DNA of 64,000 bases from NCBI RefSeq assembly GCF_902506495.1, contig NZ_LR733267.1:62001-126000 (forward strand). Direction: 5' to 3'. The stretch is from Pseudomonas sp. 8O. Lineage in GTDB: Bacteria > Pseudomonadota > Gammaproteobacteria > Pseudomonadales > Pseudomonadaceae. Numbering within the stretch: position 1 is the first letter of the stretch; each line of letters begins with the position of its first letter. The notes beneath the pieces are model-generated. The model searched no databases and was not told the DNA's origin. It worked only from the letters and a program-made list of their open reading frames with translations. This document shows positions 35,275-63,758 of the stretch, piece after piece. A program made the position numbers and the translations under genes.

Positions 35275-36504
35275 TCAGGCCTGCCGAGCGACCTCGCGGT
35301 GTCTCGGCAAGGCGATGGAAATCAGCGCGGCGGCCAGCACGAAGACGCTGGAAACCCACAGGCAGGCTTCCAGCCCATAGGCCTGGAAGACCCAGCCCGA
35401 GAGCAAGGTGCCGATCAGCCGCCCCAGTGCGTTGGACATGTAGTAGAAGCCTACGTCCAGCGATACGCCGTCTTCCTTGGCGTAGCTGACGATCAGGTAG
35501 CTGTGCAACGAGGAATTCACCGCGAACAGCACGCCGAACAGCATCAACCCACCCAGCAAGACCCCCTGCGCCGACCAGCCAGTGCCCAGCCCCAAGGCGA
35601 TCAGCGCCGGCAGACCGGCCAACAGCGCGGCCCATACGAAGGCGGCGCGACCGTCCGGCACATGGCCACTTTGCTTACCGGTAATGCGTGGGGCCAAGGA
35701 CTGCACGATGCCATAGCCGATCACCCAAGTGGCGAGAAAACCGCCCACCAGCCAGAAATCCCAGCCGAACACCGTGCTCAGGTACACCGGCAGCGCCACC
35801 ACGAACCAGACGTCGCGCGCACCGAACAGGAACAGCCGGGCAGCCGAAAGAATATTGATCGCCCGGCTCTTGGACAGCATGTCGCGGAATTTCGGCTTGG
35901 CCTTGGCCTTGCCCAGATCTTTCTTCAGCATCACCAGACTGGCCAGCCAGATCAGCGCCAGCGCGGCGGCCATGGCCAGCACCGCGCCGGTGAAACCGAG
36001 CACGGCGAGCAGCGCGCCACCCAGGAAAAAGCCGACGCCCTTGAGCGCGTTCTTCGAGCCGGTGAGGATCGCCACCCACTTGTACAGCGTGCCCTGCTGA
36101 CTGTCCGGCACCAGGAGTTTGATCGAGCTCTTGGCGCTCATCTTGTTCAGATCCTTGGCGATGCCGGACAGCGCCTGGGCGCCCATGACCCAGGGCACGG
36201 TCAACCAGGCAGCCGGCACGGTGAGCATCAACAGCGCCAGCACCTGCAGGCCAAGGCCGATGTTCATGGTGCGGTTGAGACCCAGGCGCGCGCCCAGGTA
36301 GCCGCCCACCAGATTGGTGACTACACCGAAGATCTCGTAGAACAGGAACAGCGCGGCGATCTGCAGCGGCGTGTAGCCCAGGCTGTGAAAATGCAGTACC
36401 ACCAGCATGCGCAACGCGCCGTCGGTGAGGGTAAAGGCCCAGTAGTTGCCGGTGACCAAGAGGTACTGGCGGATCTCCGGAGAGAGTCGAGCAAGGGCGT
36501 GCAT
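35275..36504 (-). CDS. arsJ: Organoarsenical efflux MFS permease ArsJ
   Basis: This is a 409-residue major-facilitator transporter. The start MHALARLSPEIRQYLLVTGN and the stretch VMGAQALSGIAKDLNKMSAK match ArsJ. ArsJ exports 1-arseno-3-phosphoglycerate, the unstable product that GAPDH makes from arsenate. The companion GAPDH gene lies upstream on the same strand. The 200-base gap between them carries a REP-like repeat. Confidence 0.92.
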   Translation of the reverse strand: MHALARLSPEIRQYLLVTGNYWAFTLTDGALRMLVVLHFHSLGYTPLQIAALFLFYEIFGVVTNLVGGYLGARLGLNRTMNIGLGLQVLALLMLTVPAAWLTVPWVMGAQALSGIAKDLNKMSAKSSIKLLVPDSQQGTLYKWVAILTGSKNALKGVGFFLGGALLAVLGFTGAVLAMAAALALIWLASLVMLKKDLGKAKAKPKFRDMLSKSRAINILSAARLFLFGARDVWFVVALPVYLSTVFGWDFWLVGGFLATWVIGYGIVQSLAPRITGKQSGHVPDGRAAFVWAALLAGLPALIALGLGTGWSAQGVLLGGLMLFGVLFAVNSSLHSYLIVSYAKEDGVSLDVGFYYMSNALGRLIGTLLSGWVFQAYGLEACLWVSSVFVLAAALISIALPRHREVARQA

Positions 36505-36561
36505 GGCGTGATTTCCTGATCGGGCGTGATATACGGCGCGGCCGAAGAACTGGCCTCAAGC

Positions 36562-36702
36562 GTAGGGTGCGCCGCGCGCACCATGGCGCTCCCTAACGGG
36601 CATGCGGGCAAACCGATGATTCGTCCCAGGCAGCAGGAAGGACGTCCCGTAAGCCTGTCCTTCCCATGCGGTGCGCTGGCTGGTGCGCACGGCGCACCCT
36701 AC
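36562..36702. repeat. REP-like inverted repeat between gap and arsJ
   Basis: GTAGGGTGCGCCGCGCGCACC (36562-36582) is mirrored by GGTGCGCACGGCGCACCCTAC (36682-36702), with 99 bases between. It lies between two functionally coupled arsenic genes and could affect read-through to arsJ. Confidence 0.8.
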
Positions 36703-36705
36703 GTG

Positions 36706-37710
36706 TCAGCCGGCCTGGCCGACCAGGCGCGCCAGCTCCACTGCGCGGTTGGCATAGCCCCACTCGTTGTCGTACCAGGCGTAGATCTTCACCTGAGTGC
36801 CGGCCACCACCATGGTCGACAGCGCATCGACGATGGACGAGCGCGGATCGGTGCGGTAGTCGATGGACACCAGCGGGCGCTCCTCGTAACCCAGGATGTT
36901 CTTCAGCGGGCCATCAGCAGCCGCCTTGAGCAGCGCGTTGACCTCCTCTGCCGTGGTGGCGCGCTCGACCTCGAACACGCAGTCGGTCAGCGAGGCGTTG
37001 GCCAGCGGCACGCGCACGGCATGGCCGTTCAACTTGCCACGAAGCTCGGGGAAGATCTCGGCAATCGCCGTGGCAGAACCGGTGGTAGTCGGAATCAGGC
37101 TCATACCCGAGGCGCGGGCGCGGCGCAGATCCTTGTGCGGTTGGTCGAGGATGCTCTGGGTGTTGGTCAGGTCGTGAATGGTGGTGATCGAGCCGTGACG
37201 AATGCCCAGCGCCTCGTGGATCACCTTGACCACCGGTGCCAGACAATTGGTGGTGCAGGAGGCGGCGGTGACGATGCGGTGCTGCGCAGGGTCGAACAGG
37301 TGCTGGTTGACGCCCATCACCACGTTCAGCGCGCCCTGCTCCTTGACCGGCGCGCAGACCACCACGCGCTCCACGCCCTGGTCCAGATAACCCTGCAGCA
37401 CAGCGACCGTCTTCATCTTGCCGCTGGCCTCGAGCACCAGATCGCAGCCACTCCAGTCGGTATCGGCGATGGCCTTGTTGGCAGTCACCGCGATGCGCTT
37501 GCCATCGATCACCACGCAATCGCCATCGCTGCCCGCCTCATGCTGCCAGCGGCCATGCACCGAGTCGAAGTTGAGCAGGTGCGCGTGGGTGGCAGCGTCA
37601 CCTGCCGGATCGTTGATCTGCACGAACTCCAGTTCGGGCCAGTTCCAGGCAGCACGCAGGGCCAGACGGCCGATGCGGCCAAAACCGTTGATGCCTACTT
37701 TGATGGTCAT
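36706..37710 (-). CDS. ArsJ-associated glyceraldehyde-3-phosphate dehydrogenase
   Basis: This 334-residue GAPDH begins [20 protein letters not shown], the NAD-binding glycine-rich start. The catalytic Cys lies in [14 protein letters not shown] and the C-terminal [15 protein letters not shown] motif is intact. It is one of the GAPDH forms that accompany ArsJ; with arsenate in place of phosphate it makes 1-arseno-3-phosphoglycerate, which ArsJ exports. The start at 37710 has an AGAGG-type site. The gene is co-oriented with arsH and the phosphatase gene. Confidence 0.93.
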
Positions 37711-37723
37711 GTCGATGCCTCTG

Positions 37724-38224
37724 TCAGTGGGTCGCGTCGAACTGGTTGATCCAGTTGAAGTGCGCGGGATGCTGGATGGCCTTGGGCCGCAGTGCCTGCA
37801 CCAAGGCGATGGCCTCATCGCGCGCAATGCCCGCTTCGATGAGGATGCGGGCGGCGATCAGGCCGGTGCGCCCGGAGCCGCCCTTGCAGTGGATGGCCAG
37901 CGCGCGGCCGCCACGCAGGTGCTCGATGATCGCCTGGCGGGACATCCGCCAGCCTTCGCCGAAGGCTTCCAGCGGTACCTGTTCGTCGGCCACCGGCAGG
38001 TGATACCAGGCCAGCGCCAGAGCCTGGCACTGCTGGCCGATCTGCTCGGCGCCGTTGGCGGAAAGCTCGTTGTGGGGCATCAGCGTGATCACGCCCGCTG
38101 CACCGGCCTGCTTGAGCGCCAGCAGCGCGTCTTCTAGCGTGGTTTCGCGGATGCCTGGGCACGGCGTGAAGATCAGCGCGCCAGCCAGGCCGGGCACGTG
38201 CAATACATCGTATGGATGAGTCAT
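37724..38224 (-). CDS. Dual-specificity-type protein phosphatase in the arsenic operon
   Basis: This 166-residue cysteine phosphatase has the P-loop [17 protein letters not shown], with HCX5R, and a likely general acid in [15 protein letters not shown]. The length and fold fit dual-specificity or CDKN3-like phosphatases. It lies 13 bases after the gap start region, between arsH and gap, and similar genes are known to accompany arsH and arsJ in ars clusters. The role in arsenic resistance is not known; phosphate-ester handling is a guess. Confidence 0.85.
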
Positions 38225-38242
38225 GGCGGGCTGTTCCTTCGC

Positions 38243-38980
38243 TCAGATGGCACGCTGATTGACGCGTTTGGACAGTTCTTCGGCCGACTCCTTGCGCTCG
38301 GAATAGCGATCGACCAGGTAGTCGGAGCGATCGCGCAGCAAAAGGGTGAACTTGAAGAGCTCCTCCATCACGTCCACCAGGCGGTCGTAGAACGAGGACG
38401 GCTTCATCCGGCCCTCAGCGTCGAACTCCATGAATGCCTTGGGCACCGAGGACTGGTTGGGGATGGTGAACATGCGCATCCAGCGTCCCAGCACGCGCAA
38501 CTGGTTGACCACATTGAACGACTGCGAGCCGCCACAGACCTGCATCACCGCCAGGGTCTTGCCCTGGGTCGGACGGACCGCGCCCATGGCCAGCGGCACC
38601 CAGTCGATCTGCGCCTTGAACACGGCGGTCATAGAACCGTGGCGCTCAGGGGAGCACCACACCTGCCCTTCCGACCACTGCATCAGCTCGCGCAGCTCCT
38701 GCACCTTGGGGTGATTTTCCGGCGCATCGTCCGGCAGCGGCAGACCGCGCGGGTCGAAGATGCGCGTCTCGGCGCCGAAGTGCTGCAACAGGCGCGCGGC
38801 CTCCTCGGTCATCAGACGGCTGAAGGACTTCTCGCGAGTAGAACCGTACAGCAGCAGGATACGCGGCGCGTGGGTCGAGGCCGATTCGACGGTGAGCTTG
38901 TCCACAGTCAGCAGATCGAGCAGTTGCAGGTCGGCATTGGGCAGATCGTCTTGCACGGTATCGCTCCAGAAATGGGTCAA
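38243..38980 (-). CDS. arsH: NADPH-dependent FMN reductase ArsH
   Basis: This 245-residue flavodoxin-fold protein contains the FMN-binding [16 protein letters not shown] and the ArsH segments [15 protein letters not shown] and [20 protein letters not shown]. ArsH oxidises trivalent organoarsenicals to the less toxic pentavalent form. It follows the arsC-arsR fusion by 26 bases and belongs to the same operon. Confidence 0.94.
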
Positions 38981-39006
38981 AACAGGGTCTTCACGAGGCT
39001 CGCCGC

Positions 39007-39783
39007 TCAGTCACAGGCTGGCTTGCGGCCAGGGCGGTCACGCATCTGCCACAGGCGCTGCACATCCGGGCGCAGCCACTCGGCATTGCTGTCCAGGGTG
39101 CGCTTGAGCACATCCCTGACCCACTCGGGCAACTGCGGATGCAGGCGGTAGTAAACCCATTGGCCATTGCGGCGATCCTCAAGCAAACCGCAGCTGCGCA
39201 GTAGCGCCAGGTGCCGGGAAATCTTCGGCTGGGCCTCTTCCAGCGCCGAGGTCAGTTCACAGACGCACAGCTCCTGCTCCAGGGTGACGAGCATGGCGAT
39301 ACGCGCCCGCGTCTCGTCGGCCAGGCACTTGAACAGTTCGGTGGGCGTCATGCCATCGCTGGCAACACTGGCAGGCTTGCTCTTGATCAAGACGAACATC
39401 TTTATCCGTTCGTGGATCTCGTGCAGGGTCTTGCGATAGGCGTCCTTCTGCGAGCTGGTCGCCGGGTCCTCGAAATTCCAGGCGATGTATTCGCCCGTAC
39501 CAGGCAGCGCCAGGCACTCCAGCGCAGACTTGTCACACAGGGTGATCACATAGTCGAACGGCTCGCCCGCTACCTGCTCCACGGACTTGCTGAACAGCCC
39601 TGCGGTCGAGACACCCAGATGCTCGAGCACATCGCGGGTACGCGGGTCTATCTCAGTGGGTGCGCTGCCCGCACTGAAAGCCTCGAAGTGTTCGGAGTCG
39701 GTGTGACGCAGCAGCGCTTCGGCCATCTGCGAGCGCGACGAATTGGCCACGCAGAGGAACAAGACACGCTTTTTCTGGCTCAT
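39007..39783 (-). CDS. Fused arsenate reductase (ArsC, LMW-PTP type) and ArsR regulator
   Basis: This 258-residue protein joins two domains. The N-terminal half (about 1-130) is a thioredoxin-coupled arsenate reductase. Its P-loop is [10 protein letters not shown] (Cys11) and the redox pair is CDKSALEC (Cys83, Cys90), spaced as in S. aureus ArsC. The C-terminal part (about 145-245) is an ArsR winged-helix repressor. Its arsenite-sensing CVC (Cys173, Cys175) lies in [11 protein letters not shown], followed by the DNA-recognition helix [12 protein letters not shown]. No separate arsR or arsC is seen in the island. The start at 39783 has a GGAA site; a further ATG at 39798 is less likely. It is divergent from acr3. 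Confidence 0.93.
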
Positions 39784-39799
39784 GTTGATTTCCATCAAG

Positions 39800-39860
39800 G
39801 ATGCACATGAGCAAATATATTATTTTGCGAATATTCAGTAAAGCGAATATGTTTGAGCCA
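39800..39860. promoter_or_regulatory. Divergent acr3/arsCR control region
   Basis: The short AT-rich gap contains two direct copies of GCGAATAT (39827-39834 and 39843-39850) with start points 16 bases apart, near ATATATTATTTT. ArsR operators are commonly AT-rich and symmetrical or repeated, so this is the likely target of the fused regulator, controlling both directions. Confidence 0.55.
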
Positions 39861-39887
39861 TTCACCCTGACGAGGACAGGCACCAAG

Positions 39888-40958
39888 ATGACAAATGCAT
39901 GCGACACCGCCCTGAAGCAATCCGCGGGCGCGCCTCTGGGTTTCTTCGAACGTTACCTGACCCTGTGGGTATTCCTCTGTATCGCGGCCGGTACGGTACT
40001 CGGCCTGGTCGCTCCGCAGGCCGCCCAGGCAATCGGCGCCATGGAGATTGCCCAGGTGAACATCCCGGTCGGCCTGCTGATATGGGTGATGATCATCCCC
40101 ATGCTGATGAAGATCGACTTCGGTTCGCTGCATGAGGTGCGCGGACAGAAAGCCGGCATCGGCGTCACCCTGTTCGTCAACTGGGTGGTCAAACCCTTCT
40201 CCATGGCCCTGATTGGCTGGCTGTTCATCAAGATCCTGTTCGCCGACTGGCTGCCGGCCGACCAACTCGACAGCTACATGGCCGGGCTGATCCTGCTCGG
40301 CGCCGCGCCTTGTACGGCGATGGTGTTCATCTGGAGCAACCTGTGTAAAGGCAACGCCAATTTCACCATCAGCCAGGTGGCGCTCAACGATCTGGTGATG
40401 GTGTTCGCCTTCGCACCCATCGTCGCCCTGCTGCTCGGCGTGTCGTCGATCCCGGTGCCGTGGGACACCCTGCTGCTGTCGGTGGTGATGTACATCGTCA
40501 TTCCCCTGGCTATCGCCCAGGCCGTGCGCGCCCACCTGCTCAAACGCGGCAAACCCGCCTTCGAAGCGGTGCTGGAAAAAATCTCCCCCTTCTCGATCCT
40601 CGCCCTGCTGGCCACCCTGGTGTTGCTGTTCTCCTTTCAGGGCCAGGCCATCGTCGAACAACCGCTGGTGATCGGCATTCTGGCCATGCCGATCCTGCTG
40701 CAGACACTGTTTATCGCCGCACTCGGCTACTGGCTCAACCGCTCCCTCAAGGTGCGCCATGACGTGGCCGGCCCCTCGACCATGATTGGCGCATCCAACT
40801 TCTTCGAGCTGGCCGTGGCGGTGGCCATCGTGCTCTACGGCTTCGACTCCGGCGCGGCGCTGGCTACCGTAGTGGGCGTGCTGATCGAGGTGCCGGTGAT
40901 GCTCTGGCTGGTGCGCATGGTCAACAAGAGTCGCAGTTGGTACGAGCAGGCCCTGTAG
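39888..40958 (+). CDS. acr3: Arsenite efflux permease Acr3
   Basis: This 356-residue permease has about ten membrane segments. The start at 39888 gives MTNACDTALKQSAGAPLGFF; a longer reading frame to 39801 runs into the control region. The conserved Cys is in LILLGAAPCTAMVFIWSNLC, which is essential in ACR3 proteins. It exports arsenite produced by the arsenate reductase domain. It is transcribed away from the rest of the operon. Confidence 0.93.
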   Translation: MTNACDTALKQSAGAPLGFFERYLTLWVFLCIAAGTVLGLVAPQAAQAIGAMEIAQVNIPVGLLIWVMIIPMLMKIDFGSLHEVRGQKAGIGVTLFVNWVVKPFSMALIGWLFIKILFADWLPADQLDSYMAGLILLGAAPCTAMVFIWSNLCKGNANFTISQVALNDLVMVFAFAPIVALLLGVSSIPVPWDTLLLSVVMYIVIPLAIAQAVRAHLLKRGKPAFEAVLEKISPFSILALLATLVLLFSFQGQAIVEQPLVIGILAMPILLQTLFIAALGYWLNRSLKVRHDVAGPSTMIGASNFFELAVAVAIVLYGFDSGAALATVVGVLIEVPVMLWLVRMVNKSRSWYEQAL

Positions 40959-63297: not shown

Positions 63298-63758
63298 AGG
63301 CGCCCCTTGATCTCGATCAGCAACGCGTCACTGGCCTGTTCGATCAGGTCCAGCACCTGTTCGAAGCCATCCTCGCCACCGTAGTAAGGATCAGGTACCT
63401 CATCCAGCGCCAGTTCGTAGCGGCGCAAGTACAGATCCAGATCAGCACGGGCATCGACAGGGCGCAATGCCTCGAGGTTGCGCAGGTTGCTCTGGTCCAT
63501 GGCCAGGATCAGGTCGAAACGCTGGAAATCGGCAGCTTCGACCTGACGCGCACGCTGCGCGGACAGGTCATAACCACGGCGCAGGGCTACCTGACGCGTG
63601 CGACTGTCCGGCGCCTTGCCGACATGCCAGTCGCCGGTTCCGGCGGAGTCCACCTGGACCCGATGGTCCAGACCAGCCGCGCGCAGCTTGTGGCGAAAAA
63701 CGCCCTCGGCCGTGGGCGAACGGCAGATGTTGCCCAGACAGACAAAAAGAACCTTCAT
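63294..63758 (-). CDS. Low-molecular-weight protein-tyrosine phosphatase
   Basis: This 154-residue phosphatase has the P-loop VCLGNICRSPTAEGVF and the general acid in EVPDPYYGGEDGFEQV. It is normally linked to exopolysaccharide or cell-wall control through tyrosine kinases; P. aeruginosa has ptpA (PA2978) here. It overlaps kdsB and murB by a few bases. Confidence 0.94.
   Translation of the reverse strand: MKVLFVCLGNICRSPTAEGVFRHKLRAAGLDHRVQVDSAGTGDWHVGKAPDSRTRQVALRRGYDLSAQRARQVEAADFQRFDLILAMDQSNLRNLEALRPVDARADLDLYLRRYELALDEVPDPYYGGEDGFEQVLDLIEQASDALLIEIKGRL

Follow-up and report, generated by a model that had tools for sequence, protein, structure and literature searches.

Proteins in which the repressor ArsR is joined to the arsenate reductase ArsC have been described before. 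Such ArsR-ArsC fusions were named for Leptospirillum ferriphilum, Microbacterium and Sinorhizobium (PMC6205960), together with the suggestion that they might help with arsenite sensing, and they are present in several actinobacterial genera (PMC6514093). Of the ArsRC from L. ferriphilum, it was stated that one gene acts as ArsR and as ArsC, in an operon with the arsenite pump gene arsB (PMC4443643; listed in PMC6205960), as could be the case for the gene considered here; however, the organism belongs to another phylum and the operon described consists of arsU, arsRC and arsB, without gapdh-arsJ (PMC4443643). The actinobacterial fusions (Microbacterium, Rhodococcus) likewise combine ArsR with a thioredoxin-type ArsC in several genera, but they stem from another phylum and form separate network clusters; both name orders are used for them (PMC6514093). 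A different route of resistance is provided by a GAPDH together with ArsJ, by which arsenate is exported as 1-arseno-3-phosphoglycerate (Chen et al. 2016, cited via PMC5930303 and PMC6205960).

The gene arsCR was found in the window, i.e., the whole 64 kb stretch of DNA which was analysed. ArsR proteins sense arsenite, while the arsenic met by aerobic bacteria is mostly arsenate. Judging from its sequence, arsCR probably encodes a bifunctional protein, a reductase and autorepressor in one, whose ArsC part would make the arsenite needed to release the ArsR part; arsenate would in this way be reported by an arsenite repressor. An arsenate-export operon needs a signal of arsenate, and a repressor carrying its own reductase would be a simple and testable answer.

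The arsCR gene and its island

The genes of the island are, with their coordinates in the window:

39007..39783, minus strand: arsCR, ArsC-ArsR fusion, from open reading frame and profile searches (ArsC about residues 1-134, linker about 135-146, ArsR about 147-258)
39888..40958, plus strand: acr3, arsenite efflux permease (TIGR00832, 387.6 bits vs. 282.8; start placed by the TIGR00832 match)
38243..38980, minus strand: arsH (TIGR02690, 417.4 bits vs. a cut-off of 292)
37724..38224, minus strand: dual-specificity-type phosphatase of the ars operon (PF22785, PF22784; no NCBIfam family)
36706..37710, minus strand: gapdh, ArsJ-associated glyceraldehyde-3-phosphate dehydrogenase (NF033735, 580.4 bits vs. 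450; start placed by the model match)
35275..36504, minus strand: arsJ, organoarsenical (1-arseno-3-phosphoglycerate) efflux permease (NF033734, 629.6 bits vs. 400)

The arsCR frame is complete and extends from 39783 to 39007 including the stop codon (258 amino acids); 8 bases 5' of its ATG at 39783 there is a GGAA, which is kept in 20 aligned relatives. An earlier note on this DNA had described one frame containing an ArsC with C11, C83 and C90 and an ArsR with a CVC motif; this was confirmed, with the cysteines where the note had put them, on the minus strand. Pfam LMWPc (PF01451) matched residues 7-130 of the product (68.4 bits vs. a cut-off of 23.2) and HTH_5 residues 156-202 (41.8 bits vs. 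22), with the ArsR domain at about 147-245. The ArsC half (window protein P0001) has C11 in a CX5R loop and a C83/C90 redox pair, assigned by way of the numbering of pI258 ArsC; in the ArsR half, C173-V-C175 is by motif the predicted CxC arsenite site. NCBIfam cut-offs were exceeded by the ArsR half (NF007528, 118 vs. 97 bits; NF033788, 93.7 vs. 55 bits); the ArsC half remained below those of the arsenate reductases (TIGR02691, 63.6 vs. 174.3 bits; TIGR02689, 62.6 vs. 157.6; NF010053, 71.8 vs. 215). It would appear to work like the arsenate reductase equivalogs without being filed under them. In a fold comparison of the modelled ArsC domain, solved arsenate reductases occupied ranks 1-14 and the first phosphatase rank 15; this ranking and the C83/C90 pair disfavour the notion of a mere phosphatase.

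Stop-free copies of arsCR with 93-97% identity are present in other genomes of the genus, which rules out an artefact, a frameshift or a sequencing accident; among named organisms, Pseudomonas sp. ZH-FAD (97%) and P. alcaliphila (96%) have the closest proteins, so that the window would come from a Pseudomonas of this kind. A whole reductase can thus be contained in a gene whose sole annotation is "ArsR/SmtB family transcription factor", and since such reductases are concealed under the ArsR annotation, genome counts of arsC miss some of them.

In the island, acr3 (plus strand) is divergent from arsCR-arsH-phosphatase-gapdh-arsJ (minus strand). With gapdh and arsJ adjacent and both models above cut-off, the island fits the gapdh-arsJ type of arsenate export operon. 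The families PF22785 and PF22784, to which the phosphatase at 37724-38224 was matched, were first drawn up for toxin-system phosphatases; VarH of Vibrio cholerae may be its counterpart.

The earlier view that arsCR is the sole arsR and arsC of the island was borne out, since none besides arsCR was found in 35275-40958. Genome-wide, there were two LMWPc matches, the other one at 63318-63752 of the window (a stronger low-molecular-weight phosphatase match of 150 bits, away from ars genes), and ten HTH_5 matches including arsCR. Among these ten, arsCR alone has a CxC motif; a separate arsR elsewhere in control of acr3 had been named in the note as a finding against it, and none of the other nine ArsR-type genes contained CxC in the frames inspected. 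The nine comprise one BigR-like gene, one SdpR-like gene and one ArsR-methyltransferase fusion, the latter (343 amino acids; L009, 709-1740, minus strand, G000:C6) being another regulator-enzyme fusion in the same genome. The absence of a separate arsC held for the island but not for the genome, where a glutaredoxin-type ArsC is encoded at C5:652783, far from the island (TIGR00014, 150 bits vs. a cut-off of 106), which could be a further supply of arsenite. This gene (L044, G000:C5:652783) has a flavodoxin-like gene as its neighbour and belongs to no ars island. In P. pseudoalcaligenes, two unclustered glutaredoxin-type arsC genes were hardly expressed and not induced (PMC10138600). Profile searches of the genome yielded one Acr3, that of the island, and no ArsB.

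Distribution, neighbourhoods and the two-gene form

Stop-free full-length fusions were detected in 19 of 398 genomes of the same genus and in 27 of 398 genomes of a family sample, which overlaps the genus sample. Fusions were also present in 33 of 390 genomes of an order sample, including 27 which represent ten families other than that of the window. In the family of G1638, 13 of 96 genomes had a fusion (11 full-length matches and 2 seen as single frames). Among the named carriers are Stutzerimonas, Marinobacter, Oceanisphaera, Zobellella, Alishewanella, Neptunomonas, Saccharospirillum, Pseudoalteromonas and Vibrio campbellii. The fused share in these searches is no frequency, since the identity thresholds favour full-length fusions over separate genes. 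A class search by gene neighbourhood (E 1e-45) returned 2 of 369 genomes, both already known, and therefore had little reach outside the order. Fusions across genus, family and order rule out that arsCR is unique to this genome. Thus the domain pair, the distribution of which the earlier note had left to database searches, is widespread, reaching ten other families of the order; as a kind the fusion is not new. Two single occurrences may be mentioned. One draft (G270, contigs C32, C72, C73 and C85) contains four fused copies, which may lie on a mobile segment present several times or be duplicates from the assembly; and the fusion L260 (G1638:C1:3410676-3411374), with CVS as sensor motif, is situated directly 3' of a gene for a four-cysteine iron-sulphur protein, which we take to resemble the ArrB subunit of respiratory arsenate reductase.

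After removal of identical pairs and short matches, 191 arsC-arsR pairs were reduced to 119 different ones, 76 of them fused and 43 split, the split form being common in Pseudomonas. Fifteen of the split pairs are in frame with an intervening stop codon and 28 are in another frame, the arsR start then typically lying 8-9 bases past the arsC stop or overlapping arsC. A tree of 112 rows was constructed with the linker excluded and with a midpoint root; L020, L231, L236, L237, L238, L086, L018 and L088 were left out. In this tree, 39 of the 41 split rows cluster together next to the 23-row fused group of the window, inside a backbone of fused rows, and the remaining two stand singly. Three changes between the fused and the split state are needed. 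No number of events is claimed, since a tree with all 41 split rows constrained together was not rejected (p-AU 0.419). Because of the midpoint root, a fused form that came first and was split later is, with caution, just the likelier reading.

Neighbourhoods were counted for loci of at least 11 kb (69 fused, 40 split; 10 shorter loci were left out). Within 9 kb of the fused genes, gapdh was present in 61, arsJ in 60 and acr3 in 55 loci; the corresponding numbers for split loci were 33, 32 and 28, with arsB in 8 more. A second thioredoxin-type ArsC occurred in 11 of the 69 fused vs. 35 of the 40 split loci, an association which derives mainly from one clade and is therefore not independent evidence. 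On a plasmid of Pseudomonas luteola (L018, 6001-6399), an intact arsR follows an arsC which seems to be frameshifted close to its end, and two further arsC genes are found in the operon.

At ten fused loci, gapdh and arsJ occur without a local permease. The genomes of nine of these were checked (L090 was left out), and Acr3 or ArsB was encoded elsewhere in six. For the other three, namely G927, G1786 (Allopseudospirillum japonicum) and G1788 (Alishewanella agri), a search for Acr3 and ArsB as exits gave no ArsB match and no Acr3 above cut-off, with weak sub-cut-off Acr3 matches of 21 and 28 bits in G927 and G1786; G1786 and G1788 are assemblies of unstated completeness. The fused proteins of all three keep the five cysteines of the catalytic and CVC sites.

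A repressor that could make its own ligand

For the control region, two features were predicted:

39815..39850, no strand assigned: predicted operator, with the dyad ATATTCG-N6-CGAATAT at 39831-39850 (1 mismatch in 14) and a weaker overlapping dyad at 39815-39834 (3 mismatches)
39814..39842, minus strand: predicted arsCR promoter, with -35 TTTACT at 39842-39837, a spacer of 17 and -10 TATATT at 39819-39814

The promoter pattern was found once vs. 0.1 expected in shuffles, and the dyad together with the promoter-like TTTACT-17-TATATT is kept upstream of arsCR in 20 aligned relatives. A dyad with at most 3 mismatches precedes 53 of the 76 fused and 42 of the 43 split genes vs. 1.5% of shuffled upstream stretches, the pattern having been derived from 20 of the same stretches and then counted on all 119. 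In the window, three dyad sites of this quality exist, of which two overlap each other between arsCR and acr3; the best-scoring one is located there. An ArsR-type dyad positioned over the promoter of arsCR itself and facing the divergent acr3 would be the operator. It resembles the sequences CATATTCGAATAGTCATATATTCGGA and CACATATGGAAATACGTATATTCGGT, which are protected by ArsR1 and ArsR2 of P. putida in footprints (PMC7994332); repression by the P. putida ArsR proteins was relieved by arsenite and not by 2 mM arsenate (PMC7994332).

The following course of events is regarded as probable. The ArsC domain would reduce arsenate to arsenite through a C11-C83-C90 relay; the ArsR domain, presumably as a dimer, would bind the dyad of the promoter region shared by arsCR and acr3, blocking transcription both ways until arsenite bound at CVC caused its release; the likely targets are acr3 and, in the opposite direction, arsCR-arsH-phosphatase-gapdh-arsJ. 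The ArsC part would then act as signal converter, arsenate itself being the substrate of the gapdh-arsJ branch. An arsenite-responsive protein which supplied itself with its ligand in this way would effectively report arsenate. The fusion would keep the maker and the reader of the signal co-expressed, and in our view local channelling is unnecessary. As the island of the window has Acr3, its ArsC part probably serves both detoxification and signalling. Split operons usually have a second ArsC (35/40), thus the ArsC1 of these would not be the sole source of arsenite. This speaks against the preferred reading, as do the ArsC scores far below the arsenate reductase cut-offs, the Acr3 or ArsB elsewhere in six of the nine genomes checked, the weak Acr3 matches in two of the other three, the glutaredoxin-type ArsC in the genome of the window, and L238, where the catalytic cysteines are lost and CVC is retained.

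Both domains are under purifying selection, with dN/dS values of 0.057 for ArsC and 0.041 for ArsR; the linker had 0.239 (45 pairs from 10 close relatives). Among the 76 different fused proteins, C11, C83 and C90 are each kept in 75, W102 in 76, and the sensor cysteines C173 and C175 in 73 and 66, respectively. Thus the two domains are constrained, and the linker between them is loose in sequence and steady in length.

The proposal of the earlier note that the enzyme feeds the sensor fits the gene neighbourhoods; this kind of fusion was already known (PMC6205960, PMC6514093, PMC4443643). The main competitor of the coupled reading is a fusion without functional coupling, in which two independent activities became linked when a stop codon was bypassed; they would be made in equal amounts and regulated jointly, with no special role in sensing. 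We regard this as well possible, if somewhat short of probable. It would agree with the common occurrence of separate arsC-arsR pairs in Pseudomonas (43 of the 119 different pairs), with split genes standing among fused ones in the tree with neither gene lost, with the low mean identity of the linker (23.6% vs. 55.6% and 56.8% for the domains) and with an AlphaFold model lacking a confident domain arrangement (pTM 0.53). On the other hand, the fused state is retained across ten additional families of this order, and 13 of the 96 genomes from another family have it as well; the linker has a length of 8-13 residues in 74 of 76 fused proteins, and ArsC remains the neighbour of ArsR also in loci with a second ArsC.

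A bolder version of the proposed coupling would regard the fusion as a one-component arsenate sensor, whose reductase mainly makes inducer for the control of gapdh-arsJ, even where an arsenite pump is lacking; overlooked as "ArsR", such proteins may explain arsenate-responsive operons without arsenite production. We offer this only tentatively and consider it rather doubtful. The role of arsenite as a signal, which belongs to the preferred reading as well, is based chiefly on the consideration that a cell whose only listed arsenic exit is for arsenate gains little from arsenite except as a signal; in G927, G1786 and G1788 arsenite would be made without a known exit, and use as a signal would be the simpler reading.

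The earlier note had also suggested that the proximity of enzyme and sensor could make induction quick; arsenite would then pass directly or locally to the CVC site of the same dimer for a faster or more sensitive response. A short linker does join both sites into one chain, but this idea found no support and appears unlikely. The linker is poorly conserved and, in the model, flexible and of low confidence: the AlphaFold monomer had a mean pLDDT of 84.4, with residues 138-142 below 50, and would consist of two good domains without confident relative placement or predicted docking, whereas ArsR acts as a dimer. Moreover, the split form is tolerated in many Pseudomonas, and arsenite crosses a cell in about 1 millisecond by our estimate, so that nearness gains little speed; diffusion, we infer, is far quicker than induction.

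Very unlikely, finally, is an ArsC domain which is itself the sensor, where the DNA-binding domain would respond to arsenate bound by ArsC or to the redox state of the ArsC cysteines, with CVC secondary or dispensable: C173, C175 or both are missing in ten of the 76 fused proteins, every one of which retains C11, C83 and C90 (L020, L231 and L236 being without both), and L259 has SVS instead of CVC, but CVC is kept in the window protein and in 66 of 76, L020, L231 and L236 are distant and in other gene settings, L236 adjoining a separate arsR, L238 shows the reverse loss, and the P. putida ArsR works without an ArsC partner by arsenite alone (PMC7994332).

Losses are therefore found on either side, ten at the sensor site and one at the catalytic site (L238, which lost all three ArsC cysteines and retained CVC), thus the two halves can drift apart in distant lineages. 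Of the variants, L236 and L259 have SVG or SVS in place of CVC (SVS in L259), and in L236 the short separate arsR-like gene, with CVN, is located between the fusion and gapdh. In L160, L225 and L235 (Marinobacter and kin) the sensor motif reads KKLCVYEL or KKLCVNEL, with the ArsC cysteines unchanged.

Comparison with known systems

The reading preferred here, a repressor supplied with arsenite by its own reductase domain, may be set against three systems in other bacteria. ArsRM of Brevundimonas sp. M20 also combines an ArsR-type regulator with an arsenic enzyme and was shown to methylate arsenite and to bind its own promoter; unlike arsCR, its enzyme is a methyltransferase, which consumes the ligand rather than making it (PMC10190100). 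The var operon of V. cholerae resembles the island of the window in containing ArsR, GAPDH, phosphatase and ArsJ and is induced by arsenate; it is reported to lack arsenite production, for which reason its authors propose arsenate as the signal sensed by ArsR (PMC9601151). In contrast to arsCR, the var ArsR is described as a plain ArsR with an altered arsenite motif (PMC9601151). An ArsC domain in this protein, if present, would be one answer to the question of arsenate sensing; a plain short ArsR would exclude it.

The ars cluster 2 of P. pseudoalcaligenes CECT 5344 (arsA-arsB-arsR-arsC-arsH-phosphatase-gapdh-arsJ; PMC10138600) has the gene order of L074, where the fusion takes the place of arsR. 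The gene concerned, BN5_2707, is annotated as arsR and would presumably encode a fusion; ArsR2 of this organism was detected only with arsenite, in the ammonium comparison (PMC10138600). In the literature searched, of partial coverage, no description of an ArsC-first fusion in Gammaproteobacteria was found. While the fusion as a kind is already known, what is added here is its extent in Gammaproteobacteria, its two-gene counterpart, the link to gapdh-arsJ and the reading as a sensor.
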